A stretch of DNA of 13,222 nt from an uncultured Pseudomonadota bacterium. Its GTDB lineage: Bacteria; Pseudomonadota; Gammaproteobacteria; Burkholderiales; SG8-39. Below, in pieces: positions 119-13,222 of this stretch (its first letter is position 1; each line of letters starts with the position of its first letter). The translations under genes were made by a program, and so were the position numbers. The DNA lies in NCBI GenBank assembly GCA_903909415.1, contig CAIVVS010000210.1:1-13222 (forward strand), written 5' to 3'. Below the pieces are notes generated by a model that saw only the letters and a program-made list of their open reading frames with translations, was not told the DNA's origin and did not search any database.

Positions 119-580
119 TCAGGTCCTGATGAAGGCCGCGAGCACCGGGTCCGCGCGCAACTGCGCGAGCGCCCCGGCGTCCGGCAGCTGCGGCCGGTCG
201 CGCTCGGCGTTCACCATGCAGAGGAAGCCGAAGGGCGCGTCGTCCGGCGCGCGGAACTGGTGCCAGGCCATCGCCGGGATGTGCACCAGGTCGTGCCCGC
301 CGACATCGAACACGCTGGCGCCCACCATGACGCGGCCGCTGCCGCGCAGGATCACCACCGCATGCGCGTGCTCGTGGCGCTCCAGCGTCGAGTAGCCGCC
401 GGCCTGCATCTCGAAGTAGCGCAGCTCGCAGCCCAGCGCCGGCTCATGGAACAGCAGCTGGCGGGTGATGTCCCTGAAAGGCGCGCTGCCCTCGGCCTTG
501 TAGACCAGCTGTTCCACGCCGTCCCAGCGGCGCGTGTCGCGCTCGTGCCGGACGTGCGGTGCGGGGTGCTTGTCGTCCAT
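119..580 (-). CDS. Cupin-domain protein A, downstream of the RuBisCO-like protein
   Basis: Small cytosolic single-domain cupin of 153 residues with no signal peptide or membrane segment. The metal-site region is visible: a glycine-rich turn at residues 61-62, then H69, H71 and H73 (motif ERHEHAHAVVILRG). The second cupin motif (HDLVHIPAMAWHQF, residues 96-109) supplies H107. The usual glutamate ligand of cupin motif 1 is not at its normal place, and the third histidine may substitute. I chose the ATG at 578-580 because the sequence from there on reads as a normal cupin N-terminus and it lies 8 bp after the RLP stop. The longer reading frame upstream is only an out-of-frame shadow of the RLP gene. 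No clear Shine-Dalgarno is present, so translation is probably coupled to the RLP. It is the last visible gene of the leftward operon. Reaction unknown; a cupin next to an RLP recalls the Rhodospirillum rubrum RLP/cupin pair, where the cupin is a methylsulfurylase, but that analogy is inference only. Confidence 0.85.
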   Translation of the reverse strand: MDDKHPAPHVRHERDTRRWDGVEQLVYKAEGSAPFRDITRQLLFHEPALGCELRYFEMQAGGYSTLERHEHAHAVVILRGSGRVMVGASVFDVGGHDLVHIPAMAWHQFRAPDDAPFGFLCMVNAERDRPQLPDAGALAQLRADPVLAAFIRT

Positions 581-588
581 GCGCAATG

Positions 589-1728
589 CTACCGCGCGCC
601 CGCCGGTTCCTGCGCGGCCGCCTCGGTGAAGGCGCGCGTCCGTGCCAGCAGCGCGGGCGCGAGTGGCGGCGAGCCATCGCCCGCCTCCAGCAGCGAGCCG
701 CCGATCAGCAGCATCACGTCGCGGCCGTAGAAGCGCAGCATCTCCGGCACGCGTTCCACCGTCATCCCGCCGGCCGGCACCGGCAGGATGGGCGCCAGGC
801 CCTGCCAGGGCGCCAGCGCCGCCCCGGCGATCGCGCGGCACAGCGCCTCGGAGTAGGCGAAGCGCCCGCCATGGTTGGGGTAGATCACCGCGTCCGCGCC
901 CAGCAGCCGGAACAGTTTCCCGAGCAGCAGGGGCGGCGCGACCCGCGCCGCGCCGGCGTAGGCGGGATGGGCCAGCACCGGCACGCGGATCTCTTCCTGC
1001 ACCAGTTCATGGAAGGCGGGCATGCCGACCAGCGCCGGGGCGAGCAGCACCGCGCCCACGCCTTCCTCGCGCACGATGCGCGCCTGCCCGGCGAGCGCGC
1101 GCGGCGCGCCCACCATGCTCGGGGCGTAGAGCGCGCGGCGCCCGGTCTCGCGGCAGGCCCGCTCGACCGCGCGCTGGCAGGCCGCCACGCGCGCGGCGAA
1201 GGGGGCATAGGACTGGTCGGCCATGCCGTGGTCGTCCTTGATGATGTCCACGCCGCCGCGCACGAGTACCTCGCACAGCGCGGCGAGTTTCCCGACCGGC
1301 AGGCCCTGCGGCTTGATCGCCGAGCAGGTCAGCGCGCGCGCGGGGGCATCCAGCAACCGGCGCAGGCCGGCGACGCCGTAGCGCGGCCCGGCGAAGTGCC
1401 GCGCGTGGCCCCCGGGCAGTTCCACGTCGAGCAGCTCGACCTTGTCATGCAGCGAGCTGTTGCCGAACAGCATGTTGATGGTCTGGGCGGCGTCGAAACC
1501 CGTTCCCGTGCCCATGGTGACGTCGGCCAGCGCGATTCGCGCGAGGAAGGCGCCGTCGCCCGACTCCGATACCGACTCCACGCGTCCGACCACCTCGTCG
1601 CGGATCCAGTCCTCGCGCACCGCGGCCATGGGCACCTCGACGCTCTGCTCCAGCGCGATCGACTGGGCGAAGGCATCGGCCTGCACGCGTTCGCAGCGCA
1701 TCCGGTAGGTGGCGATCAGGCGCGGCAT
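589..1728 (-). CDS. RuBisCO-like protein (form IV RuBisCO large-subunit homologue)
   Basis: Protein of 379 residues, shorter than true RuBisCO large subunits (about 460-475), with the N-terminal domain reduced. RuBisCO landmarks can be followed in order: EQSVEVP (27-33), MLFGNSSL (86-93), IKPQGL (138-143, the K175/K177 region), GGVDIIKDDHG (158-168, the carbamylated-Lys K201/D203/E204 region), VLAHPA (251-256, H294 region), PNHGGRF (284-290, loop 6/K334 region), PAGG (318-321, S379 region) and IGGSL (342-346, phosphate-binding GG). The K175 and K201 equivalents (K139, K164), D203 (D166) and H294 (H254) are kept. K177 is Q141, E204 is H167, K334 is R289 and S379 is A319. Loss of these residues rules out CO2 fixation; known RLPs are enolases, isomerases, or decarboxylases/transcarboxylases on phosphorylated sugars. 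The substrate cannot be read from sequence. It is third in the operon, 16 bp after cupin B and 8 bp before cupin A, with only a weak GGACGG-like ribosome site. Confidence 0.92.
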   Translation of the reverse strand: MPRLIATYRMRCERVQADAFAQSIALEQSVEVPMAAVREDWIRDEVVGRVESVSESGDGAFLARIALADVTMGTGTGFDAAQTINMLFGNSSLHDKVELLDVELPGGHARHFAGPRYGVAGLRRLLDAPARALTCSAIKPQGLPVGKLAALCEVLVRGGVDIIKDDHGMADQSYAPFAARVAACQRAVERACRETGRRALYAPSMVGAPRALAGQARIVREEGVGAVLLAPALVGMPAFHELVQEEIRVPVLAHPAYAGAARVAPPLLLGKLFRLLGADAVIYPNHGGRFAYSEALCRAIAGAALAPWQGLAPILPVPAGGMTVERVPEMLRFYGRDVMLLIGGSLLEAGDGSPPLAPALLARTRAFTEAAAQEPAGAR

Positions 1729-1740
1729 GCCCGTCCGTCG

Positions 1741-1755
1741 CGGGTCAGTGACCCG
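1741..1755. repeat. Perfect inverted repeat over the cupin B stop codon
   Basis: CGGGTCA and TGACCCG are separated by a single G. The repeat covers the TGA stop of cupin B and ends in the short gap before the RLP start. In mRNA it could form a six-pair stem with a three-base loop. It might tune RLP translation or partly stop transcription; there is no U-run, so a true terminator is unlikely. It may also be chance in GC-rich DNA. Confidence 0.4.
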
Positions 1756-2341
1756 GGAGCTTTGCCGCCAGTTCCGGCTCGAACTCGCCGTCCAGCAGCA
1801 CGAAGGCGATCACGCAGGGCTCCTTGGAGCGGTTGCTCCAGGCGTGGTTGGTGCCGACCTGCACCAGCACGTCGCCGGCATTCAGCACCACCTCGCTGTC
1901 GTCCAGCAGCATGGTCACTGTGCCCGAGAGCACGATCGCGTAGTCGATGGTCTCGGTCCGGTGCATCATCGGGTGGCGCTTGTTGGCCGCGAACGTGGAG
2001 GCCGAGGCGTTGCCCAGCGCCGCGAACACTGCCTTGGCCTGCTCGCCGTCGAGGTTGAGCAGGGCCTCGGAGTCGGGGGCGAGCGTGTTGATTCGCAGCA
2101 CGCTGCCGCGCTTGGCCGGCAGCTGGCGGCGCGGGCCCGGCGTCGGGTCTTCGGCCTGGGCGACGATGGGCGCCGGCGTCCCGCCGGTGCGCCAGATGTC
2201 GGTGGATGCATAGCCGGGCCGCATTGCCGCGGTGTGCACGAAGGGCGCGGGGCCGTCGGAGATGACGATGGCCTTCCCGTCGGCATCGTGTCCCGTCACT
2301 ACCCGGCGCACGTAGCCGGGCTGTCCCTTTTCCAGTGCCAT
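1745..2341 (-). CDS. Cupin-domain protein B, between binding protein and RLP
   Basis: Cytosolic protein of 198 residues: an N-terminal part of about 115 residues followed by a C-terminal cupin barrel. Cupin motif 1 is seen as KRHPMMHRTETIDYAIVLSG (121-140), with H123, H127, and E130 or D133 as likely metal ligands. Motif 2 is GDVLVQVGTNHAWSN (156-170), matching G(X)5PXG(X)2H(X)3N except that the proline is valine; H166 is the ligand. The N-terminal part has a conserved-looking TDIWRTGGTPAPI segment (47-59). The ATG at 2339-2341 lies only 4 bp after the stop of the binding-protein gene, and its AGGAG ribosome site overlaps the end of that gene, so the two are translationally coupled. Cupins of this HRTxTxDY type are common beside catabolic genes in Burkholderiales, with mostly unknown reactions. 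Its family differs from that of cupin A, so the two are unlikely to be simple duplicates. Confidence 0.88.
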   Translation of the reverse strand: MALEKGQPGYVRRVVTGHDADGKAIVISDGPAPFVHTAAMRPGYASTDIWRTGGTPAPIVAQAEDPTPGPRRQLPAKRGSVLRINTLAPDSEALLNLDGEQAKAVFAALGNASASTFAANKRHPMMHRTETIDYAIVLSGTVTMLLDDSEVVLNAGDVLVQVGTNHAWSNRSKEPCVIAFVLLDGEFEPELAAKLPGH

Positions 2342-2345
2342 CGCC

Positions 2346-3350
2346 TTACTCCTGTTTGATGCCGGAGGCCGCCGCCACCCGCTTGTAGCGCTCGATGTCG
2401 TTGCGCAGGATGGCCGTCGAATCCGCGGGGGACAGCAGGAACAGGTCCAGCCCCGCGCCGGCCAGCTTCTTCACCGTGTCCTGGTTGGCCAGCACCTTGC
2501 GGATGTCGCCCTCGATCTTCGAGACGATCTCGCGCGGCGTGCCGGCCGGGGCGAGGAATCCGTAGTAGTTGTCCACCGCGAAGTCCTTCAGTTCCGGCAC
2601 GCCGGACTCGCGGATGGTGGGGATGTCCGGCGCGGTGGGCGAGCGCTCGCGGCTGGTGAGCGCGATCGCGCGCAGGCGTCCCTGGCGCACGTAGGGCAGG
2701 GCGGCGGGCAGCGTCACCGCGACCACGTCCAGCTGGCCGCCGACCGCGTCCGACACCGCGCCGGCGCAGCCGCGGTGCGGGATGTGCAGCGCGAAGGTCT
2801 TGGTCTCGAACTTGAACAGCTCCAGCGCGAAATGGTGGGTGGTCGCGATGCCGCAGGTGGCGTAGTCGAACTTGCCCGGCGATGCGCGCAGCAGCGCCGT
2901 GAACTCGCGCATGTTGGCCGCCTTGACCCGCGGGTTGACGGCGAGCAGCACCGGCGAGGACGTGGTGATCGCGATCGGGGCGAAGTCCTTGAGCAGGTCG
3001 AACGAGGGCTTGGCGAACAGCGCCGCGTTCACCGCATGGGAGCTGGCCACCAGCAGCAGGGTGTAGCCGTCCGGGGCGGAACGGTAGACCATCTCCGCGC
3101 CCACGTTGCCGCCGCCGCCGACGCGGTTCTCCACCACCACCTGCTGGCGCCACAGGTCGGACAGCCGGTCGCCGATGAAGCGCGCGGTCAGGTCCGCGCC
3201 GCCGCCGGGGGTGAAGGTGGCGACCACCTTGACCGGTTTGGAGGGGTATTCCTGGGCGGCGGCGGGCAGCGCCGTGCCCAGGGCGGCGCCCAACGCGGCC
3301 GCCAGGGCCTTGGCGGCGGCGAAGGCCCCTGAAAATTGCTTGTGCGGCAT
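2346..3350 (-). CDS. Tripartite tricarboxylate transporter substrate-binding protein (Bug/TctC family)
   Basis: Periplasmic solute-binding protein of 334 residues, the usual length for the family. It has a Sec signal peptide (basic N-terminus MPHK, a long Ala/Leu core, likely cleavage after Ala32 at PAAAQE). The mature start YPSKPVKVVATFTPGGGADL is the typical Bug opening whose backbone contacts a ligand carboxylate. Further family signs are VVENRVGGGGNVGAEMV, a DGYTLLL strand and an ATCGIATTHHFALELF segment. I chose the ATG at 3348-3350 because it has a perfect AAGGAGG ribosome site five bases upstream and gives a proper signal peptide; earlier in-frame starts lack both. It is first in the leftward operon. 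No TctA/TctB membrane genes are visible, which is common for Bug proteins in Burkholderiales. The ligand is unknown, probably a carboxylate or aromatic acid related to the pathway of the neighbours. Confidence 0.95.
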   Translation of the reverse strand: MPHKQFSGAFAAAKALAAALGAALGTALPAAAQEYPSKPVKVVATFTPGGGADLTARFIGDRLSDLWRQQVVVENRVGGGGNVGAEMVYRSAPDGYTLLLVASSHAVNAALFAKPSFDLLKDFAPIAITTSSPVLLAVNPRVKAANMREFTALLRASPGKFDYATCGIATTHHFALELFKFETKTFALHIPHRGCAGAVSDAVGGQLDVVAVTLPAALPYVRQGRLRAIALTSRERSPTAPDIPTIRESGVPELKDFAVDNYYGFLAPAGTPREIVSKIEGDIRKVLANQDTVKKLAGAGLDLFLLSPADSTAILRNDIERYKRVAAASGIKQE

Positions 3351-3355
3351 GCGAT

Positions 3356-3362
3356 CCTCCTT
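3356..3362 (-). promoter_or_regulatory. Strong ribosome binding site of the Bug/TctC gene
   Basis: On the minus strand this reads AAGGAGG, a perfect Shine-Dalgarno match, five bases before the ATG at 3348-3350. It decides the start of the binding-protein gene against earlier in-frame starts. Confidence 0.85.
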
Positions 3363-3430
3363 GTTTTGCATAGTGTACATTCGCAATCCTGCGTCGCCGG
3401 TCCGGCGCCGCATTTAGCTTGCGATTCGCA

Positions 3431-3435
3431 AAGGA
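3431..3435 (+). promoter_or_regulatory. Ribosome binding site fixing the GTG start of the FAD subunit
   Basis: AAGGA lies five bases before the GTG at 3441-3443. A nearby ATG at 3436-3438 is in another frame and runs straight into a stop, so the GTG is the start. The site overlaps the end of the TTGCGA-T-TCGCAA palindrome. Confidence 0.75.
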
Positions 3436-3440
3436 ATGAC

Positions 3441-4325
3441 GTGAAACCTTCCGCATTCACCTATCACGCCCCGCGCACGCTCGATGAAGCGCTGCAGCTG
3501 GTGGCCGGCAACCCGAACGCGCGCGTGCTGGCCGGCGGCCAGTCGCTCATGCCCATGCTCAACATGCGCCTGGCCGCGCCCGACCACCTGGTGGACCTGG
3601 GCCGCGTCGCCGGCCTGTCCGGCATCGCGGAGAAGGACGGCGCCATCACGTTCGGTGCGATGACCCGCCAGCGCGACATCGAGTTCTCGCCGCTGGTGGC
3701 GAAGCGCCTGCCGCTGCTGGCCGAGGCCATCACCTGGGTCGGCCACCGCCAGACGCGCAACCGCGGCACCATCGGCGGGAGCCTGTGCCACCTCGACCCG
3801 TCCGCCGAGCTGCCGACCATCGCGATGGCGATGGACGCGACGCTGCGCATCGCGCGCCCCGGCGGCGAGCGCGTCATCCCGATAGGCGAGTTCGCGGCCG
3901 ACATGATGACCACCGCGCTCGCCGAGGGCGAGATCCTCGCCGAGGTGCGCATCCAGCCCTGGGCGCCCGGCCACGGCTGGGCATTCCTCGAGTTCGCGCG
4001 CCGGCACGGTGACTTCGCCATCGTGTCGGTGGCGGTGCTGCTGGAAGCAGGCAAGGATGGCGGCATCACGCGCGCCTCGCTTACCCTGGGTGGCGTCGGC
4101 CCGGTGCCGTTCCGCCTGCCCGCCGCCGAGGCGCTGCTGGCCGGCGGCAAGCCCGACGGGGCGCGCATCGACGCCGCCGCGGCGCTGTGCGGCGAAGTCG
4201 AGGCGCTGGAAGACCCGCAGGCCCCGGCCTGGTACCGGCAGCGCCTGGCCCGCACCCTCGCCGGCCGTGCGATCCGCACCGCGCTGTCGCGCGTGGGCAG
4301 CGTCCCTCCCGGCATCGGCAAATGA
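3441..4325 (+). CDS. Molybdenum hydroxylase FAD-binding subunit (CoxM/XdhB-type)
   Basis: Medium subunit of a xanthine-dehydrogenase-family molybdenum hydroxylase, 294 residues, the usual CoxM length. It holds the FAD that passes electrons from the iron-sulfur subunit to an acceptor. The N-terminal FAD domain has both family signatures: VLAGGQSLMPMLNMRLA (29-45) and RNRGTIGGSLCHLDPSAELP (106-125). The C-terminal CO-dehydrogenase flavoprotein domain follows, with a LTLGGVGPVPFRL segment (215-227). Translation starts at a GTG behind AAGGA; the longer open frame upstream crosses the divergent promoter and lacks a ribosome site. It is the first gene of the rightward M-S-L operon, and its TGA overlaps the next gene's ATG. 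The substrate is set by the large subunit, not by this protein. Confidence 0.95.
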   Translation: MKPSAFTYHAPRTLDEALQLVAGNPNARVLAGGQSLMPMLNMRLAAPDHLVDLGRVAGLSGIAEKDGAITFGAMTRQRDIEFSPLVAKRLPLLAEAITWVGHRQTRNRGTIGGSLCHLDPSAELPTIAMAMDATLRIARPGGERVIPIGEFAADMMTTALAEGEILAEVRIQPWAPGHGWAFLEFARRHGDFAIVSVAVLLEAGKDGGITRASLTLGGVGPVPFRLPAAEALLAGGKPDGARIDAAAALCGEVEALEDPQAPAWYRQRLARTLAGRAIRTALSRVGSVPPGIGK

Positions 4326-4861
4326 GCAACCCCACCATGAACGGCAAAGCCATGAACGAGAACGCCCACGAGGCGATGCGCGCCATCACCGTGACGGTGA
4401 ACGGCGAGAAGCGCGAATGCAACGTGCCCCAGCGCAAGATGCTGGCGGACTTCCTGCGCCAGGACCTGGGCCTGACCGGCACGCACCTCGGTTGCGAGCA
4501 CGGCGTGTGCGGCGCCTGCACCGTGCTGGTGGACGGGGTGAGCGCGCGCAGCTGCCTGATGCTGGCGGTGCAGTCCGACGGCTGCGAGGTGCGCACGGTC
4601 GAGAGCCTCGCCCCCGCAGGAAAGGGCGGCGAGGGCATGGACGCCCTGCAGCAGGCCTTCTGGAACCGCCACGGCCTGCAGTGCGGCTACTGCACGCCGG
4701 GCATCCTGATGTCGCTCACCGAGCTGCTGCGCGACAACCCGGATCCGACGGAAGAGGAAGTGCGCCTGGTGCTGTCCGGGCACCTTTGCCGCTGCACCGG
4801 CTACCAGAACATCGTGGCCGCCGCGTTGGATGCGGCGCGCGCGCTGCGGGAGGGAAAATAG
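4322..4861 (+). CDS. Molybdenum hydroxylase 2Fe-2S subunit (CoxS/XdhA-type)
   Basis: Small electron-transfer subunit of 179 residues carrying two [2Fe-2S] clusters. The plant-ferredoxin-like N-terminal cluster uses C58, C63, C66 and C78 (motif GCEHGVCGACTVLVDG). The C-terminal helical domain binds the second cluster, near the molybdenum cofactor, through C121, C124, C156 and C158 (CGYCTPG and CRCTGYQNI). All eight cysteines are present. The first ATG overlaps the FAD-subunit stop as ATGA, and I prefer it for coupling. In-frame ATGs at 4337 and 4352 are also possible, because the first 20 residues are not conserved in the family and would be an N-terminal extension. The stop is followed directly by the large-subunit ATG. 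Confidence 0.95.
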   Translation: MSNPTMNGKAMNENAHEAMRAITVTVNGEKRECNVPQRKMLADFLRQDLGLTGTHLGCEHGVCGACTVLVDGVSARSCLMLAVQSDGCEVRTVESLAPAGKGGEGMDALQQAFWNRHGLQCGYCTPGILMSLTELLRDNPDPTEEEVRLVLSGHLCRCTGYQNIVAAALDAARALREGK

Positions 4862-7219
4862 ATGAACGCCCCCGAGCAGAAGTTCCGCGTCGTCGGCAAC
4901 AAGGCGCGCCGCATCGAGGACCCCGCGCTGCTGCGCGGCCAGGGCCATTACCTGGATGACGTGGTCGTGGATGGCGTGCTGCACGCCGCCTTCGTGCGCA
5001 GCCCGCACGCCCACGCGAAGGTGCGGTCGGTGAACTTCAGCGCCGCGCGCGCCGTGCCCGGCCTGGTCGCGGTGTATGACGCGCAGGCGATGTCGGCCCA
5101 CGTGTCCACCATGCGCCTGCCGCTGGGCTTCCCGTCGGCCACGCTGCAGAAGGACATCACGCCCTGGGTGCTGTCGGGCAAGGAAGTGGCCTTCGCCGGC
5201 GAGGCGGTCGCCATGGTGGTGGCGCATTCGCGCTACGCCGCCGAGGACGCCGCGGCGCTGGTCGAGGTGGATTACGACCCGCTGCCGGCGGTAGCCGACT
5301 GCCGCGACGCGATGAAGCCCGACTCGCCCAAGGTGCGTTCGGACGCCGCGTCCAACCTCGCCGAGCAGGTGCGCATGGCCTACGGCGACGGCGCGGCGGC
5401 CTTCGCCAAGGCGAAGCACGTGTTCCGCGAACAGCTGTTCGTGCATCGCGGCGGCGCGCATTCCATGGAAGGCCGGGGCGTGATGGCGCGCTTTGACCAG
5501 GCGAGCGGGGAGCTCACCGTCTGGTCGTCCACGCAGATGTCGCACGAGCTGCTGCACGCGCTGGCCGAACTGCTGTCGCTGGACGAGCACCACATCCGCG
5601 TGATCGCGCCGGACGTGGGCGGCGGCTTCGGCGCCAAGTTCCTGGTCTACCCGGAGGAGATCGCGGTGGCCGCCTCGGCGCGCGACCTCGGCCGCCCGGT
5701 GAAGTGGGTGGAGGACCGGCGCGAGCACTTCCTCTCGGCGATCCAGGAGCGCGACCAGTTCTGGGACGTGGAGATCGCCGTGGACGCGGACGCGAAGGTG
5801 CTGGGCGTTCGCGGCAAGCTGGTGCACGACCAGGGCGCCTACACGCCGCAGGGGATCAACTGCGCGTTCAACGCGGCGTCCTCGGTGACCGGCCCGTACA
5901 TCGTGCCCTGCTACGAGATGGACATCTTCGTGATGCAGACCAACAAGCCCTCGGTGGTGCCGGTGCGCGGCGCCGGCTATCCGCAGGCGGCCTTCGTGAT
6001 GGAGCGCCTGCTGGACCGCGTGGCGCGCGAGCTGGGGCTGGACCGCACCGAGGTGCGCGCGCGCAACTTCATCCCCGCGGAGAAGATGCCCTACGCCAAG
6101 CAGCTGAAGAACCGCGCCGGCGTGGTGTCGGTGGTGGACAGCGGCGACTACCTCGCCTGCCAGGAAAAGGCCAAGGCGGCGATCGACTACGCCGGCTTCC
6201 CGGCGCGCAAGGCCGCGGCGCTGAAGGAAGGCCGCTACCTCGGGCTGGGCTTCGCCAACTGCGTGAAGCCCACCGGGCGCGGGCCGTTCGAGTCGGCGCT
6301 GGTGCGCGTGTCTCCCGCCGGCCGCATCACCATCTACACCGGCGCGCTGGCGATGGGCCAGGGCATCAAGACCGCGCTGGCGCAGGTCTGTGCCGAGCAG
6401 CTGGGCGTGGAGCCCGGGGACATCGAGGTGACCGCGGGCGACACCGGCTTCCTGTCCATGGGACTGGGCGGCTTCGCCAGCCGGCAGGCGGTGATGGCCG
6501 GTTCGGCCACGCACATGGCGGCCTCCGAGGTGCGCGACAAGGCCCTCAAGGCGGCCGCCAGCATGCTCGAGGCCTCCGAGAAGGACCTGGTGCTGAGGAA
6601 CGGCCGCGTCGAGGTGAACGGCGCGCCCGGCTCGGGCGTGACGCTGGGCCAGATCGCGAAGAAGATGAAGGGCGCGCCCGGCTACCAGATCCCCGGCGGC
6701 ATGACGCCGGGCCTGGAGGCGACCTCCATGTTCCAGTGCGACACGCAGGCGCATGCCAACGCCTGCCATGCGGTGGAACTGGAAGTGGACATCGGCACCG
6801 GCGCGGTGAAGCTGCTGCGCTACGTGGCGGTGCAGGACAGCGGCCGGCTGATCAACCCGATGGTGGCCGAGGGCCAGGTGCATGGCGCGATCGTGCACGG
6901 CATCGGCAACGCGCTGTTCGAGAAGATGGGCTACGACGAACAGGCACAGCCGATCTCCACCACCTTCGCCGACTACCTGCTGGTCACGGCGACCGAGCTG
7001 CCGCACATCGAGGTGCTGTTCAACGAGTCGCCCTCGCCGACCAACCCGCTCGGGGTGAAGGGCATCGGCGAGACCGGCACCATTCCGGTGGCGCCGGCCA
7101 TCATCTCCGGCATCGAGGACGCGCTCTCGCCCTTCGGCGTGCGCGTGTCCGAGGCGCCGGTGTCGCCGGTGCGCGTGCTGGAATTGCTGGATGCGGCCCA
7201 AAAAGTGCCGAAAACATGA
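4862..7219 (+). CDS. Molybdenum hydroxylase large, molybdopterin-binding subunit (CoxL/XdhC-family catalytic subunit)
   Basis: Catalytic subunit of 785 residues, full length for the family. The N-terminal a/b-hammerhead domain begins near RRIEDPALLRGQGHYLDD (16-33). The cofactor-binding part shows GGGFGAKF (253-260), WVEDRREHFLSAIQERDQ (282-299), MGQG (498-501), GLGGFASRQAVMAGSA (534-549) and GVKGIGETGT (731-740), in which E737 is the catalytic base glutamate. The active-site loop reads PVRGAGYPQA (367-376). It is neither the AYxCSFR motif of true CO dehydrogenase nor the usual AYRGAGR of form-II relatives, since a tyrosine replaces the second arginine. It therefore hydroxylates or oxidises some other, unknown substrate, perhaps an N-heterocycle, aromatic or aldehyde. 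It starts directly after the 2Fe-2S gene stop, behind a GGAGGG ribosome site. The CoxD/E/F- or XdhC-type maturation genes do not follow it here. Confidence 0.95.
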   Translation: MNAPEQKFRVVGNKARRIEDPALLRGQGHYLDDVVVDGVLHAAFVRSPHAHAKVRSVNFSAARAVPGLVAVYDAQAMSAHVSTMRLPLGFPSATLQKDITPWVLSGKEVAFAGEAVAMVVAHSRYAAEDAAALVEVDYDPLPAVADCRDAMKPDSPKVRSDAASNLAEQVRMAYGDGAAAFAKAKHVFREQLFVHRGGAHSMEGRGVMARFDQASGELTVWSSTQMSHELLHALAELLSLDEHHIRVIAPDVGGGFGAKFLVYPEEIAVAASARDLGRPVKWVEDRREHFLSAIQERDQFWDVEIAVDADAKVLGVRGKLVHDQGAYTPQGINCAFNAASSVTGPYIVPCYEMDIFVMQTNKPSVVPVRGAGYPQAAFVMERLLDRVARELGLDRTEVRARNFIPAEKMPYAKQLKNRAGVVSVVDSGDYLACQEKAKAAIDYAGFPARKAAALKEGRYLGLGFANCVKPTGRGPFESALVRVSPAGRITIYTGALAMGQGIKTALAQVCAEQLGVEPGDIEVTAGDTGFLSMGLGGFASRQAVMAGSATHMAASEVRDKALKAAASMLEASEKDLVLRNGRVEVNGAPGSGVTLGQIAKKMKGAPGYQIPGGMTPGLEATSMFQCDTQAHANACHAVELEVDIGTGAVKLLRYVAVQDSGRLINPMVAEGQVHGAIVHGIGNALFEKMGYDEQAQPISTTFADYLLVTATELPHIEVLFNESPSPTNPLGVKGIGETGTIPVAPAIISGIEDALSPFGVRVSEAPVSPVRVLELLDAAQKVPKT

Positions 7220-7420: not shown

Positions 7421-8482
7421 ATGAACGCCGCCACCACGGTACTGCGGTTGCTTGCCGGGCTGCTGCCCCTGATCGCCTGCGCGACCGCCGGCGCGCAGGG
7501 CCACGATTGCGCCCGTCACGAGGACCGCAACCTGCGGCTGGACTGCTATGACAAGGCTTTCGGCCAGCCCGGTGCGCCGGGCGCCGCACCGTCCGCCGCC
7601 ACGCCGTCGCGCCCCGGCGAACCGGTCGAGGCCGCGGTAGCTGCGCGCCGCGCCGAGCAGGCCCGCGGCACCAGGACGCTTGCGCAGTCCTGGGACCTGG
7701 ACGCGAAGGATCCGCGCGCGCCGTTCGAGCTGCGCACCTACAAGCCGATGTACCTGCTGGCGGCTACGCACACCAACCGCACCAACGCGCAGCCCGCGTC
7801 GCAGAACCCGGCCAACGTGCAGGTCGCGCCGCTGCCCATCGACGCCACCGAGGCGCAGTTCCAGCTCAGCTTCAAGACCAAGGTCTGGGACCGGATCCTC
7901 GGCGACACCGGCAGCCTTTGGATGGGCTACACGCAGAGCTCACGCTGGCAGGTCTACAACAGCGCCGCATCGCGTCCGTTCCGCGAGACCAACTACGAGC
8001 CCGAGGCGATGTTCGTGATGGATGCGCCGGGCGAGTTCCTGGGCTGGAAGTCGGTGATGACGGGCGTGAGCATCAACCACCAGTCCAACGGCCGGGCGCG
8101 GCCGCTGTCGCGCAGCTGGAACCGCCTGATCGCGCAGTGGGGCCTGGAAAAGGGCGACTCCATGATCCTGCTGCGCCCCTGGTGGCGCATCCCGGAGCGC
8201 GCGGCCGACGACGACAACCCGCGCATCCAGGACTATGTCGGGCGCGCCGAGGTGATCTTCGCGCACCGCTTCGGCGGGCACGTGGTCTCGGTGCAGGGGC
8301 GCCACTCGCTGCGCACCGGGGACAATTCGCGCGGCTCGATGAAGCTGGAATGGTCGATCCCGCTGTCGGGCTACCTCAAGGCCCACCTGTCGCTGTTCTC
8401 CGGCTACGGCGAGAGCCTGATCGACTTCAACCACCGCCAGACGGTGTTCGGCGCGGGCGTGTCGCTGGTGGAGTGGCGCTGA
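7421..8482 (+). CDS. pldA: Outer-membrane phospholipase A (OMPLA family)
   Basis: Calcium-dependent outer-membrane phospholipase A1/A2, a 12-stranded barrel that dimerises and hydrolyses phospholipids misplaced in the outer leaflet. The active-site motif is SINHQSNGRARPLSRSWNRL (218-237): H220, S222 and N234 keep exactly the spacing of E. coli H142, S144 and N156. Barrel strands run from about residue 105 to the end (EWR). At 353 residues it is longer than E. coli PldA (289). The extra part is an N-terminal region of about 75 residues after the signal peptide, with a C-x11-C pair (C30 and C42, in a RLDCYDKAF context) followed by an Ala/Pro-rich linker. The leader could be cleaved after Ala25 (AGAQ), but LIAC at 17-20 also looks like a lipobox. 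The ATG at 7421 is chosen for its ribosome site and signal peptide. It is a single gene, convergent with the next block. Confidence 0.93.
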   Translation: MNAATTVLRLLAGLLPLIACATAGAQGHDCARHEDRNLRLDCYDKAFGQPGAPGAAPSAATPSRPGEPVEAAVAARRAEQARGTRTLAQSWDLDAKDPRAPFELRTYKPMYLLAATHTNRTNAQPASQNPANVQVAPLPIDATEAQFQLSFKTKVWDRILGDTGSLWMGYTQSSRWQVYNSAASRPFRETNYEPEAMFVMDAPGEFLGWKSVMTGVSINHQSNGRARPLSRSWNRLIAQWGLEKGDSMILLRPWWRIPERAADDDNPRIQDYVGRAEVIFAHRFGGHVVSVQGRHSLRTGDNSRGSMKLEWSIPLSGYLKAHLSLFSGYGESLIDFNHRQTVFGAGVSLVEWR

Positions 8483-8518: not shown

Positions 8519-9016
8519 TCAGGCCGGGTTGGACCGCAGGCCGTACATCGCCTCGCCGATGATCAGGTACTCGACGCGGGCGAAGTGCCGGCCCTCGTAC
8601 AGCGCCTCGTTGCGGAACGTGTAGGCGACGGCGGCCACGGTGTCGCCCAGCCTGGGTTGGGGCACCTTCCAGTTCTCCACCCGGTTCAGCGGCGACAACT
8701 CCAGCGTCCAGTCTCCGCGGGCCGTGGGCAGCACGGCGCCGGCCAGCACCCTGGCCCCGTCCACGCGCTGGGTCTGGGCGGGCGGCACGCGGCGCGCGAG
8801 GCCCGCGGGCAACGCCATGGCCTCGGGGACGGTCACCACGATCTCGACATGCGGGTTCTGCCACTTGGCGGACTTCACGCGGCCCTCCAGGTAGATCGGG
8901 CGCGACTCGTCGAAACTCGACCAGCCGTGGTGGGCGAGGAGGCGGGGTGCGTGCGCAACCAGTCCGGTGGCGAGTGCGGCGGCGGGAACGGTGGTGATGA
9001 AGCGGCGTCGGTCCAT
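8519..9016 (-). CDS. Exported protein resembling DUF6152
   Basis: Protein of 165 residues that begins with a twin-arginine-like leader: RRRFI at residues 3-7, then an Ala/Leu core to about residue 28. It may thus be exported folded by Tat or by Sec. The mature part opens AHHGWSSFDESRPIYLEGRV (28-47), followed by KWQNPHVEI, a small beta-rich domain. This AHHGWS...GxV...WxNPH pattern is what I recognise as the DUF6152 family, whose function is unknown. The histidines in the AHHGW and NPH motifs could bind a metal, but that is inference. The ATG has a GGGAGGA ribosome site very close upstream. It is last in a leftward group of three, 18 bp after the membrane-protein gene. Confidence 0.8.
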   Translation of the reverse strand: MDRRRFITTVPAAALATGLVAHAPRLLAHHGWSSFDESRPIYLEGRVKSAKWQNPHVEIVVTVPEAMALPAGLARRVPPAQTQRVDGARVLAGAVLPTARGDWTLELSPLNRVENWKVPQPRLGDTVAAVAYTFRNEALYEGRHFARVEYLIIGEAMYGLRSNPA

Positions 9017-9034
9017 GAATCCTCCCGGTTGGGG

Positions 9035-9511
9035 TCAGAGGTAGGCAATCCAGCGGCCGCAGAAGATTACCGCCATCCAGGCCACTATCGACAGGCCCGC
9101 CTGCAGGCGGGTCGCCGCTGACGCGGGGTCCAGCGCCCCGCGGGCATGCAGCAGCGCGGCATTGGTGCCGGCGGCGAACAGCAGGGCCACCTTGGCGACG
9201 AAGGCGGTGTTGTCCACCATTTCCGCGGCGCGCATGGCGAACATCGCCGAACCGGAGGCGGCGGCCAGCGCGAATGCGGCGATCGTCCATGGCAGCACCG
9301 CCGATGCGAGCGCGCGCGGATCCAGCCGGCGCATCATCCCGAGCAGGCGCAGGTCCACCACCAGTACGCTGCCGAAGGTCGCGGCCAGCCCCAACAGGTG
9401 CGCAAACTCCAGCAGCGGGTAGGCCAGCGAGTTGGCCCTGAGCGCCGCGACCGGGCCCCAGCCCGACAGAAGGGCGAGCGCGCCGGCAGCGGGCGGTATG
9501 GCGGCGTCCAT
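9035..9511 (-). CDS. Four-helix integral membrane protein resembling DUF6644
   Basis: Hydrophobic protein of 158 residues with four likely transmembrane helices at about 30-57, 71-93, 103-122 and 136-157. The motif YPLLEFAHLLGLAATFGSVL (31-50) followed by VDLRLLG, and the segment FVAKVALLFAAGTNAALLH (104-122), fit the DUF6644-type membrane family. Histidines H38 and H122 sit within or at the end of helices and could bind a haem or metal, which is speculation. The function is unknown. It lies between two exported proteins, with gaps of 31 bp upstream and 18 bp downstream, and so is probably co-transcribed with the DUF6152-like gene. The ribosome site is poor, so the exact start (ATG at 9509-9511) is less certain; a later start would cut into the first part before helix 1. 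Confidence 0.78.
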   Translation of the reverse strand: MDAAIPPAAGALALLSGWGPVAALRANSLAYPLLEFAHLLGLAATFGSVLVVDLRLLGMMRRLDPRALASAVLPWTIAAFALAAASGSAMFAMRAAEMVDNTAFVAKVALLFAAGTNAALLHARGALDPASAATRLQAGLSIVAWMAVIFCGRWIAYL

Positions 9512-10415: not shown

Positions 10416-11417
10416 ATGAAGCCATCCACCCTCCGCCCGGCCAAGGCGGCGCTAGCCGCCGCGCTGGCGCTCCTGGCCGCCGCGCCCGCGGCCGCGCAGG
10501 ACGCCGCCGCCTGGCCCGCCAAGCTCGTGCGCCTGGTCGTGCCGTACCCGACCGGCGGGCTGCCCGACACGCTGGCGCGGGTGCTGGCGCAGCGCATGGG
10601 CGAGAGCGCGGCCATGAACGGCGCGCAGGTGCTGGTGGAGAACAAGCCCGGGGCCGGCGGCATCCTCGGCACCGAGTTCGTCGCGCGCTCGGCGTCCGAC
10701 GGCTACACCGTGCTCATCGCCGACCTCGGGCAGACCGCGATCAACCTGGCGCTGCACCCGAAGCTGTCCTACGACACGCTGCGCGACTTCGCGCCGGTGT
10801 CCATGATCGGCACCTCGCCGTTCTTCCTCGCCGTGCACCAGTCCTCCGGCATCCACACGGTGGCCGAGCTGGTCGCGCAGGCCAGGGCCAGGCCCGGCCA
10901 GCTGTCCTACGGGTCCTCGGGTCCGGGCAGCCCGCACCACCTGGCGATGGAGACCTTCAAGGCGCGCACCGGCACCGACATCCTGCACGTGCCCTACAAG
11001 GGCAGCGGCCAGTCGACGCCGGCGTTGATAGGCGGGCAGATCCCGATGCTGTTCACCGTGCTGTCCACGGTGACCGCGCACGTGAAGACCGGCACGGTGC
11101 GCCTGGTCGCGGTGGCGAGCCCCACGCGCACGCCGCAGGCGCCCGATGTGCCCACCTTCGCCGAGCTGGGCGTGCGCGACATGCTGTTCCTGCCCTCGGT
11201 GGCGGCGCTCGCCCCGGCCGGCACGCCGGCGCCCGTCGTCGCCAAGATATCGGGCGAGGTGGCGCGGGCGGTGCGCCACCCGGACTCGCTCAAGCGCTTC
11301 GAGAGCCTGGGCATCGACCCGGTGGGCAACACCCCGGCCGAGTACGCGGCGCAGCTGCGCGCCGACATCGCGTTCTATGCGCAGGCGGTCAGGCTGTCCG
11401 GGGCGAAGGCGGAGTAG
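10416..11417 (+). CDS. Second tripartite tricarboxylate transporter substrate-binding protein (Bug/TctC family)
   Basis: Periplasmic binding protein of 333 residues. The signal peptide is basic (MKPSTLRPAK) with an Ala/Leu core and likely cleavage after Ala27 (AAAQD). The family opening LVRLVVPYPTGGLPDTLARV (37-56) is present, then VLVENKPGAGGILGTEFV, DGYTVLIAD, YGSSGPGSPHHLAMETF and the middle segment HVPYKGSGQSTPALIGGQI. These are textbook Bug features, and this protein is closer to the family norm than the binding protein in the RLP operon. The two differ clearly in sequence, so they are not a recent duplication. It stands alone: divergent from the gene before, convergent with the gene after, with no TctA/TctB nearby. 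The ligand is unknown. The long open frame reaching back to 9432 is antisense to the genes before it and has no start signal. Confidence 0.95.
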   Translation: MKPSTLRPAKAALAAALALLAAAPAAAQDAAAWPAKLVRLVVPYPTGGLPDTLARVLAQRMGESAAMNGAQVLVENKPGAGGILGTEFVARSASDGYTVLIADLGQTAINLALHPKLSYDTLRDFAPVSMIGTSPFFLAVHQSSGIHTVAELVAQARARPGQLSYGSSGPGSPHHLAMETFKARTGTDILHVPYKGSGQSTPALIGGQIPMLFTVLSTVTAHVKTGTVRLVAVASPTRTPQAPDVPTFAELGVRDMLFLPSVAALAPAGTPAPVVAKISGEVARAVRHPDSLKRFESLGIDPVGNTPAEYAAQLRADIAFYAQAVRLSGAKAE

Positions 11418-11487: not shown

Positions 11488-11521
11488 CAGGGCGGCGGTA
11501 CCTTCAGAGCGGCGGCACCTT
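11488..11521. repeat. 17-bp tandem duplication across the decarboxylase stop codon
   Basis: Read on the minus strand, AAGGTGCCGCCGCTCTG (11505-11521) is followed directly by AAGGTACCGCCGCCCTG (11488-11504), two units matching at 15 of 17 positions. The TGA stop of the decarboxylase is formed at the junction of the two units. Because 17 is not a multiple of three, the second copy would be read in another frame. Confidence 0.75.
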
Positions 11522-13222
11522 GTCCGCGCGCACGCAGTCGACGTAGTAGTGCATCTCGTGGCCCACCTCCTCCTCGACCAGGCCGTGGACGTCGGTCTCC
11601 AGGCCGGGGAACTGGGCGTTGAACTTGCGCGCGAACTGCAGGTACTGGACGATGCGCTCGTTGAAGCGCTCCCCCGGGATCAGCAGCGGGATGCCCGGCG
11701 GGTAGGGCGTGACCAGCATGGCGGTGACGCGGCCCAGCAGCTTGTCGATCTCCACGCGCTCGATCTCGCGGTGCGCCAGGCACGAGAAGGCGTCCGAGGG
11801 CTTCATCGCCGGGCTGAGTTCGGACAGGTACATCTCGGTGGTCAGGCGCGCGACGTCGTTGGCGCGGTAGGTCTCGTGGATCTGCTGGCACAGGTCCTTC
11901 AGGCCGGTGCGCTCGTAGCGCGGGTGCGCGGCGCAGAACTCGGGCATCACGCGCCACAGCGGCTGGTTGCGGTCGTAGTCGTCCTTGAACTGCTGCAGCG
12001 AGGCCACCAGCGTGTTCCAGCGGCCCTTGGTGATGCCGATGGTGAACATGATGAAGAAGGAGTACAGGCCGGTCTTCTCGACGATCACGCCGTGCTCGGC
12101 CAGGTAGCGCGTCACCATCGACGCCGGGATGCCGGTCTTGGCGAACTTTCCCGACACGTCCAGGCCCGGGGTGACCAGGGTCGCCTTGATCGGGTCCAGC
12201 ATGTTGAAGCCCGGGGCAAGGTCGGAGAAGCCGTGCCACTTCTCGTTGCCGCGCAGGATCCATTCCTCGCGGCTGCCCATGCCTTCCTTGCTGGTGGCGC
12301 CCGGGCCCCAGACCTTGAACCACCAGTCCTTGCCCCACTCGTCGTCCACCTTCTTCATCGCGCGGCGGAAGTCCAGCGCCTCGATGATGGATTCCTCCAC
12401 CAGCGCCGTGCCCCCGGGCGGCTCCATCATCGCCGCGGCGACGTCGCACGAGGCGATGATCGCGTACTGCGGGCTGGTGGAGGTGTGCATCAGGTAGGCC
12501 TCGTTGAACACGTGGCGGTCGAGCTTGCGGGTCTGCGACTCCTGCACCAGGATCTGCGAGGCCTGCGAGATGCCCGCCAGCAGCTTGTGCGTGGAGTGGG
12601 TCGCGAAGATCAGCGAGTCCTTGGACGGCGGGCGGTCGCGGCCGATGGCGTGCATGTCCTTGTAGAAGTCGTGGAAGGTGGCGTGCGGCAGCCAGGCCTC
12701 GTCGAAGTGCAGCGTGTCCACGTACGAACCCAGCGTCTCCTTGAGCATCTCCACGTTGTAGAGCACGCCGTCGTAGGTCGACTGGGTGATGGTGAGGATG
12801 CGCGGGGTCTTGTTGGCCGCCTTGCTGGCGAAGGGGTGCGCCTCGATGCGCTTCCTGATGTTGTCCGGGTGGAACTCGGACAGCGGGATCGGCCCGATGA
12901 TGCCCAGGTGGTTGCGCGTGGGCGTGAGGAACACCGGGATCGCGCCGGTCATGGTGATCGCGTGCAGGATGGACTTGTGGCAGTTGCGGTCCACCACCAC
13001 CACGTCCCCCGGGGCGACGGTGGAGTGCCACACCATCTTGTTGGAGGTGGAGGTGCCGTTGGTCACGAAGAAGCAGTGGTCGGCGTTGAAGATGCGCGCC
13101 GCGTTGCGCTCGGCCGCGGCCACCGGGCCGGTGTGGTCCAGCAGCTGGCCGAGTTCGTCCACCGCGTTGCACACGTCGGCGCGCAGCATGTTCTCGCCGA
13201 AGAACTGGTGGAACATCTGCCC
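11504..13222 (-). CDS. Orn/Lys/Arg decarboxylase, PLP-dependent (class III, aspartate-aminotransferase fold); 5' end outside window
   Basis: Removes the alpha-carboxyl group of a basic amino acid to give a polyamine precursor (agmatine, cadaverine or putrescine). About 572 codons are visible. The family's full length is about 715-755, so the N-terminal wing domain and the start lie beyond the right edge; the ATG at 13214-13216 is internal, since the frame stays open and joins the FFGENMLRADV...LLDHTGP segment that normally follows the wing. Seen in order: VTNGTSTSNK, DRNCHKS, LHFDEAW (PLP-ring aspartate), FATHSTHKLLAGISQAS (Schiff-base Lys codon at 12584-12586), FNEAYLMHTSTSPQYAI, EKWHGF, and a C-terminal domain with PYPPGIPLLIPGE. 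TQSTYDGVLYN and ITKGRWNTLV resemble E. coli arginine decarboxylase AdiA, while GVIVEKTG resembles lysine decarboxylase, so the substrate stays open; arginine or lysine is more likely than ornithine. It ends at a TGA within a tandem repeat. Confidence 0.93.
   Translation of the reverse strand, partial: GQMFHQFFGENMLRADVCNAVDELGQLLDHTGPVAAAERNAARIFNADHCFFVTNGTSTSNKMVWHSTVAPGDVVVVDRNCHKSILHAITMTGAIPVFLTPTRNHLGIIGPIPLSEFHPDNIRKRIEAHPFASKAANKTPRILTITQSTYDGVLYNVEMLKETLGSYVDTLHFDEAWLPHATFHDFYKDMHAIGRDRPPSKDSLIFATHSTHKLLAGISQASQILVQESQTRKLDRHVFNEAYLMHTSTSPQYAIIASCDVAAAMMEPPGGTALVEESIIEALDFRRAMKKVDDEWGKDWWFKVWGPGATSKEGMGSREEWILRGNEKWHGFSDLAPGFNMLDPIKATLVTPGLDVSGKFAKTGIPASMVTRYLAEHGVIVEKTGLYSFFIMFTIGITKGRWNTLVASLQQFKDDYDRNQPLWRVMPEFCAAHPRYERTGLKDLCQQIHETYRANDVARLTTEMYLSELSPAMKPSDAFSCLAHREIERVEIDKLLGRVTAMLVTPYPPGIPLLIPGERFNERIVQYLQFARKFNAQFPGLETDVHGLVEEEVGHEMHYYVDCVRADKVPPL

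Follow-up and report, generated by a model that had tools for sequence, protein, structure and literature searches.

Genome comparison suggests that a RuBisCO-like protein/cupin salvage pair and a Bug/molybdenum hydroxylase unit are functionally separate occupants of one divergent bacterial locus

The DNA considered here, referred to as the window, is a stretch of 13,222 nucleotides from an uncultured Pseudomonadota bacterium (GenBank assembly GCA_903909415.1, contig CAIVVS010000210.1) in which two runs of genes diverge from a short shared control region. The leftward run encodes a periplasmic binding protein of the Bug type, two cupins (A and B), and a RuBisCO-like protein (RLP), while the rightward run encodes the three subunits of a molybdenum hydroxylase, CoxM, CoxS, and CoxL (CoxMSL). 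Comparison with other genomes makes it probable that two functionally separate units share this locus, one a salvage pair composed of the RLP and cupin A and the other an uptake and oxidation unit composed of Bug and CoxMSL. The features, with the evidence for each, are as follows.

119-580, minus strand: cupin A, Rru_A2000-type, predicted 1-methylthioxylulose-5-phosphate methylsulfurylase (PDB identity, adjacency to the RLP)
589-1728, minus strand: RLP, DeepYkr-type, predicted 5-methylthioribulose-1-phosphate 1,3-isomerase (Pfam RuBisCO_large, 1.2e-20; match to 3QFW)
1745-2341, minus strand: cupin B, a Cupin_2 protein and relative of 3ES1 (Pfam; PDB by sequence)
2346-3350, minus strand: Bug, a TctC-like periplasmic binding protein with a Bug27-like pocket and both cysteines (Pfam TctC, 8.5e-59)
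3351-3440, no strand: shared divergent control region, 90 bp (sequence, direct repeats)
3441-4325, plus strand: CoxM-type FAD subunit (Pfam FAD_binding_5, CO_deh_flav_C)
4322-4861, plus strand: CoxS-type 2Fe-2S subunit (Pfam Fer2_2, Fer2)
4862-7219, plus strand: CoxL-type molybdenum subunit with a VRGAGY loop (Pfam MoCoBD_1/2)

All seven genes are present in the tight divergent arrangement described by the original prediction, and its measurements are also correct: the control region is 90 bp long, and the gaps in the leftward run are 8 bp between cupin A and the RLP, 16 bp between the RLP and cupin B, and 4 bp between cupin B and Bug. Pfam places Cupin_2 in both cupins, and the FAD, 2Fe-2S, and molybdenum-cofactor domains of a three-subunit hydroxylase in CoxM, CoxS, and CoxL. 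The control region contains a palindrome, TTGCGA-T-TCGCAA (3419-3431), as well as two copies of ATTCGCAA (3379-3386 and 3424-3431), which together represent a possible operator. A promoter scan of 3200-3600 returned no sigma-70-like site; as zero were also expected there, the scan is uninformative, leaving the layout as the sole basis for arguing co-regulation of the two operons.

The RLP is most similar in the PDB to 3QFW (E 1e-102; 177/342 residues identical, 51.8%), presumably RLP1 of Rhodopseudomonas palustris; the PDB match itself names no organism. Identity to the MtnW protein 2OEK is 33.5% (116/346), and the alignments show that the window RLP and 3QFW have the active site motifs KPQ and KDDH in common whereas 2OEK has KGM and KDDE. 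Among RLP loci from other genomes, taken as the best 80 from a scan of genome contigs in which more exist (at least 80), KPQ is found in 75/80 and KDDH in 80/80, the latter being one of the two patterns by which those loci were sought; the looser motifs PNxGGRF and GG[SA]L occur in 46/80 and 45/80. These four motifs may be read as marks of the clade. Scores against curated models exclude several better known identities, including MtnW, the DK-MTP-1P enolase (NCBIfam TIGR03332, 137.1 bits against a cut-off of 513.6), OiaX (NF042437, 71 bits against 700), and true RuBisCO, for which the score also lies under the model cut-off.

For cupin A, identity is 62.7% to 3JZV, named Rru_A2000 in the PDB, and 60.3% to 3KGZ. 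Three motifs, HxHxH (69/70), WHQF (68/70), and FLC (67/70), are nearly invariant among 70 relatives and may have catalytic roles; a further pattern, V[NT][AR]xRD, occurs in 39/70. In the passages of PMC5893883 and PMC4958253 that bear on these proteins, Rru_A1998 and Rru_A2000 of Rhodospirillum rubrum, and RPA2169 and RPA2170 of R. palustris, are described as 5-methylthioribulose-1-phosphate 1,3-isomerase and 1-methylthioxylulose-5-phosphate methylsulfurylase, respectively, and the former source gives 53% identity between the two RLPs and 56% between the two cupins, as well as a kcat of 1.3 per second for R. palustris RLP1. With 51.8% for the RLP and 62.7% for cupin A, the window proteins thus lie near or inside the spread of the tested pairs. 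The likeness to this methylthioadenosine (MTA)-isoprenoid shunt extends to the neighboring placement of an RLP and an Rru_A2000-type cupin and to their motifs; the difference is that the window pair sits in one run behind Bug and cupin B. Judged from sequence, membership of the RLP and cupin A in the known shunt pair is predicted with high confidence. As their close homologues with tested activity in R. rubrum and R. palustris suggest, the RLP would convert 5-methylthioribulose-1-phosphate to 1-methylthioxylulose-5-phosphate, from which cupin A would produce methanethiol and 1-deoxyxylulose-5-phosphate. RLPs found in a plasmid search are at most 46.8% identical to that of the window.

The surroundings of the RLP in other genomes reveal a single frequent partner. 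Cupin A is directly downstream in 69/80 loci, lies 3.3 kb away in one, and was not found in ten, among which three sequences end a short distance from the RLP (at most 0.8 kb in L077, 2.2 kb in L039, and 4.1 kb in L002); the full 10-kb flanks are present on both sides in just 33 of the 80. Same-clade RLPs whose 10 kb of downstream sequence yields no cupin A match are found at L006, L011, L017, L019, L025, L065, and L070. Clustering of open reading frames within 8 kb of the RLP, with antisense frames of both genes excluded, yielded besides cupin A no partner in more than 12/80 loci. Bugs are encoded in 10/80 loci, at 29-38% identity to the window Bug, and remote matches to the Cox family in two: L015 (CoxL 24%, CoxS 38%) and L076 (CoxS 33%).

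The enzyme encoded by mtnA makes the RLP substrate. The gene was found in 28/30 genomes chosen for an RLP or cupin A compared with 16/30 hand-picked genomes without a cupin A match (Fisher p 0.0009), although the 28 matches include three fragments under the cut-off and three of the 30 chosen genomes (G002, G006, and G011) have an RLP without an adjacent cupin A. MTA phosphorylase is about equally common in the two sets (27/30 against 26/30). These results bear on the idea that in this lineage the RLP and cupin A have retained their reactions while their substrate is a different phosphorylated ketose, such as one produced by the neighboring unit. The RLP family does take different substrates, as the distinct models for MtnW and OiaX illustrate, and placement behind Bug and cupin B recurs in 0/80 loci; the motifs and identities nonetheless group both proteins with the tested pair, and with mtnA so frequent in genomes that have an RLP or cupin A, a change of substrate is quite improbable.

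The original prediction had joined all of these genes in one dedicated pathway running from import of an acid or heterocycle by Bug, through its oxidation by the molybdenum enzyme, to later steps catalyzed by the RLP and cupins. Conserved gene order would be expected from such a pathway in related genomes, but within the available flanks neither a cupin B match nor a CoxL orthologue occurs in any of the 80 RLP loci. Co-occurrence was evaluated in two samples, 399 genomes of one order and the 98-genome family of G010 and G014. CoxL orthologues were counted at 63% identity or more in the first (13 of 20 matches at E 1e-200) and at 62-64% in the second (9 of 14 matches), for a total of 20 distinct genomes, with G015 and G197 in both samples. 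In the family of 98, the RLP is found in 16 genomes, 11 of which have no CoxL orthologue, so that the RLP clade usually occurs apart from this molybdenum hydroxylase, against the expectation of the original prediction. Five genomes have both (G015, G197, G440, G441, and G445), each time on different contigs, most of them draft contigs; four carriers of CoxL have no RLP match (G438, G439, G482, and G483). Elsewhere, G030, G078, and G122 carry CoxL with neither a cupin A match nor mtnA.

Several observations weigh against a separation of function. Within the 399 genomes, cupin A is found in 15 and CoxL in 13, and both occur in two (G015 and G197, on different contigs) against a chance expectation of 0.5. 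An RLP is present in 5/9 CoxL carriers of the family of 98 compared with 11/89 other genomes there (Fisher p 0.005); neither comparison is controlled for phylogeny. The short gaps of the leftward run lead to a prediction of co-transcription of Bug, cupin B, the RLP, and cupin A, and this tight operon shares its control region with coxMSL. The divergent block is, in addition, probably kept in a sister contig or population. Relatives of the RLP (92% identity), cupin B (95%), and CoxM (94%) each come from an ENA contig 4,980 bases long; because size and source agree, a single sister contig carrying the divergent block is assumed. For the same reason the fused layout is probably no assembly error, and an artefact of assembly is considered unlikely. 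A closer CoxM relative, P0241 (97%), lies on an NCBI contig of 91,859 bases for which no RLP or cupin B row appears among the best 120 matches of either protein; as those matches stand for 90% clusters, the result is ambiguous. Among the loci compared, the fused layout, with the RLP and cupin A behind Bug, was not found beyond the window and this apparent sister contig, and it may represent a lineage-specific rearrangement that put the salvage pair there. Set against the absence of CoxL orthologues and cupin B from the RLP loci, the separate contigs in all five genomes that have both, and the match of the RLP and cupin A to enzymes of known function in methylthio-sugar salvage, the tight operon, the retained block, and the family co-occurrence leave a single pathway disfavored and highly improbable. 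In the open PMC literature, no match contained “RubisCO-like protein” and “molybdenum hydroxylase” together.

What survives of the original prediction is the idea of joint action of Bug and the molybdenum hydroxylase on an acid or heterocycle that is taken up, without the RLP and cupin A as later steps. CoxL matches at 62-69% identity are found in 20 genomes. The window CoxL has the active site loop VRGAGY as well as KGIGE, which is presumably at the position of the catalytic glutamate. VRGAGY is kept in 19/19 CoxL-orthologue loci read, and a 54% paralogue (L177) has VRGAGH; the loop of the large subunit in aerobic CO dehydrogenase is AYxCSFR. Aerobic CO dehydrogenase and the quinoline and pyridine molybdenum hydroxylases share the three-subunit domain layout, and the best PDB matches are 8UEM, 7DQX, and 1T3Q. 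The window CoxL differs from them in its VRGAGY loop and is under the cut-off of every NCBIfam model it matched. An assignment as aerobic CO dehydrogenase is rejected on the basis of this loop and of scores of 745.7 bits against a cut-off of 950 and 513.2 bits against 991.15.

The association with Bug emerges from comparison of 19 of the 20 CoxL-orthologue regions (G347 was left out), among which the contig of G374 shows no Bug, giving 18 loci. Relatives of the window Bug beside CoxL orthologues are 56-68% identical to it. The 126 Bug stretches collected reduce to 104 distinct proteins after removal of identical ones, and among these the Bug27-type cysteine pair (Cys136/Cys165) is present in 22/36 Bugs near CoxL orthologues compared with 1/68 others (p 4e-12, a value that overstates independence because the genomes are related). 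The lone exception elsewhere is at L178, where a CoxL paralogue (58%) is encoded about 6 kb away. A cysteine-pair Bug is found in 14 of the 18 loci, in 14 genomes and several layouts. Mere abundance of Bugs in general catabolic islands could produce some such pattern, since many of the loci have several Bugs, four of the 18 have Bugs of other types alone (L140 in G198, L171 in G197, L202 in G441, and L204 in G440), and cupin B also lies near many unrelated Bugs. Although these four loci and the relatedness of the genomes count against the association, enrichment of one Bug type in several layouts makes abundance an unlikely explanation. The association is thus demonstrated by genome comparison, and Bug and CoxMSL are a real unit, for which a substrate and an order of steps may be proposed. 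A second Bug of the window (10416-11417) has no cysteine pair, and its nearest PDB match is 2DVZ.

The clue to the substrate comes from the pocket. The best PDB match of the window Bug is Bug27 (111/297 identical, 37%), and passages of PMC11452294 state that Bug27 and Bug69 of Bordetella bind quinolinate and list the pocket residues. On the assumption that the Phe12, second position 74 (Asn), and Asn228 of that paper correspond, in the chain as printed, to F16, N78, and N227, the window Bug keeps 7/10 positions compared, including both cysteines. The similarity is limited by the overall identity, by replacement of Thr22, Gln142, and probably Asn227, and by the link to a molybdenum hydroxylase; the passages of PMC11452294 name no hydroxylase, and “dehydrogenase” is absent from its main text. 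Among the matches listed in the open PMC literature, none joined quinolinate, a molybdenum hydroxylase, and Bug.

Two kinds of neighbor in related genomes add to this clue. In eight genomes (L160-L167), the order nadC-bug(-bug)-coxM-coxS-coxL is found on one strand, with Bugs 59-68% identical to that of the window; L161 has one Bug, L163 ends inside nadC, and the nadC of L164 scores above its curated cut-off. In six genomes, a protein of one family is encoded between Bug and the Cox genes (L224 in G439, L226 in G482, L227 in G438, L228 in G483, L229 in G445, and L168 in G015); CoxM and CoxS differ in presence and order from locus to locus. In the PDB, the L226 and L224 copies have a single match, 9JP7, a record named 4,5-dihydroxyphthalate decarboxylase (E 5e-109 and 6e-102), and identity of the remaining four copies to that of L226 is 62-96%. 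As most of the Bug27/Bug69 pocket is kept and relatives add nadC or this decarboxylase relative, the leading guess, held with low to moderate confidence, is that the substrate of Bug and CoxMSL is quinolinate (pyridine-2,3-dicarboxylate) or a related aromatic dicarboxylate. In the periplasm, Bug would bind a carboxylate with an aromatic or heteroaromatic ring, and this ring would be hydroxylated by the molybdenum enzyme. Quinolinate is the aza-analogue of phthalate, and a complete route for it by Bug27-like capture, ring hydroxylation, and decarboxylation of the hydroxylated dicarboxylate by the relative seen in six genomes would be undescribed and is, as a whole, rather unlikely. Among described systems, the picolinate (pic) degradation cluster of Bordetella (PMC10142695) offers a likeness at the level of pathway description: a pyridine-carboxylate route that contains PicC, a decarboxylase acting on a hydroxylated pyridine acid.

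Quinolinate itself faces several objections. The changes T22A, Q142H, and N227D in the pocket, the last dependent on the alignment, mean that the ligand may be another compound. All eight genomes of the nadC type also have nadA (fragmented in one) and one nadC each, so that this nadC is taken as the usual biosynthetic gene, whose position beside the Bugs may be chance; as evidence for quinolinate salvage the link is weakened accordingly. The decarboxylase name derives from one PDB record, with just weak NMT1/THI5-like matches in Pfam and no NCBIfam match above cut-off, and the window has neither nadC nor a relative of the L226 family. By contrast with the eight nadC-type genomes, nadA was found in none of the nine CoxL carriers of the family of 98, and nadC was not found in four of them; nadA was also not found in three of 13 other genomes searched (G374, G115, and G020). 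These absences could reflect either reliance on imported pyridines, as passages of PMC11452294 report for Bordetella, or incomplete genomes.

An aromatic acid lacking the pyridine ring, such as a hydroxylated phthalate or benzoate, is a substrate to be taken seriously, if not the expected one. The PDB record matched by the decarboxylase relative and the three pocket positions unlike Bug27 agree with such an acid, but the cysteine pair held in common with Bug27 is rare in other Bugs (1/68), and molybdenum hydroxylases of the CoxMSL type usually hydroxylate N-heterocycles or aldehydes. Relatives of the L226 decarboxylase family (34-35% identity) also lie 1.4-1.6 kb upstream of the RLP in 3/80 loci (L017, 7533-8516; L019, 7586-8569; and L044, 7391-8374).

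The remaining gene of the leftward run, cupin B, is assigned a predicted accessory role. Homologues occur in 46/399 genomes, and their neighborhoods are varied and rich in Bugs, with no constant partner; Bug is near cupin B in 19/22 sequences examined, the window being among the 22. The word FdeH appears in none of the literature matches listed for that protein. Downstream of CoxL, the window also contains an outer-membrane phospholipase A1 gene (7421-8482; PF02253, E 4e-95), adjacent genes for DUF6152 and DUF6644 proteins (8519-9511; Pfam), and an Orn/Lys/Arg decarboxylase-like gene (11504-13222) that is cut by the window end and that, among 60 genomes searched, has its nearest relatives in G010 (89%, partial) and in G014 and G015 (85%), a relation that served to place the window.

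For the RLPs, the analysis removes what is likely a false lead, namely a new catabolic pathway with an RLP as one of its enzymes, and extends the known RLP-cupin salvage pair by further members. For Bug proteins and CoxL-like hydroxylases, which are large families with few known substrates, it offers a substrate hypothesis for one branch of each.

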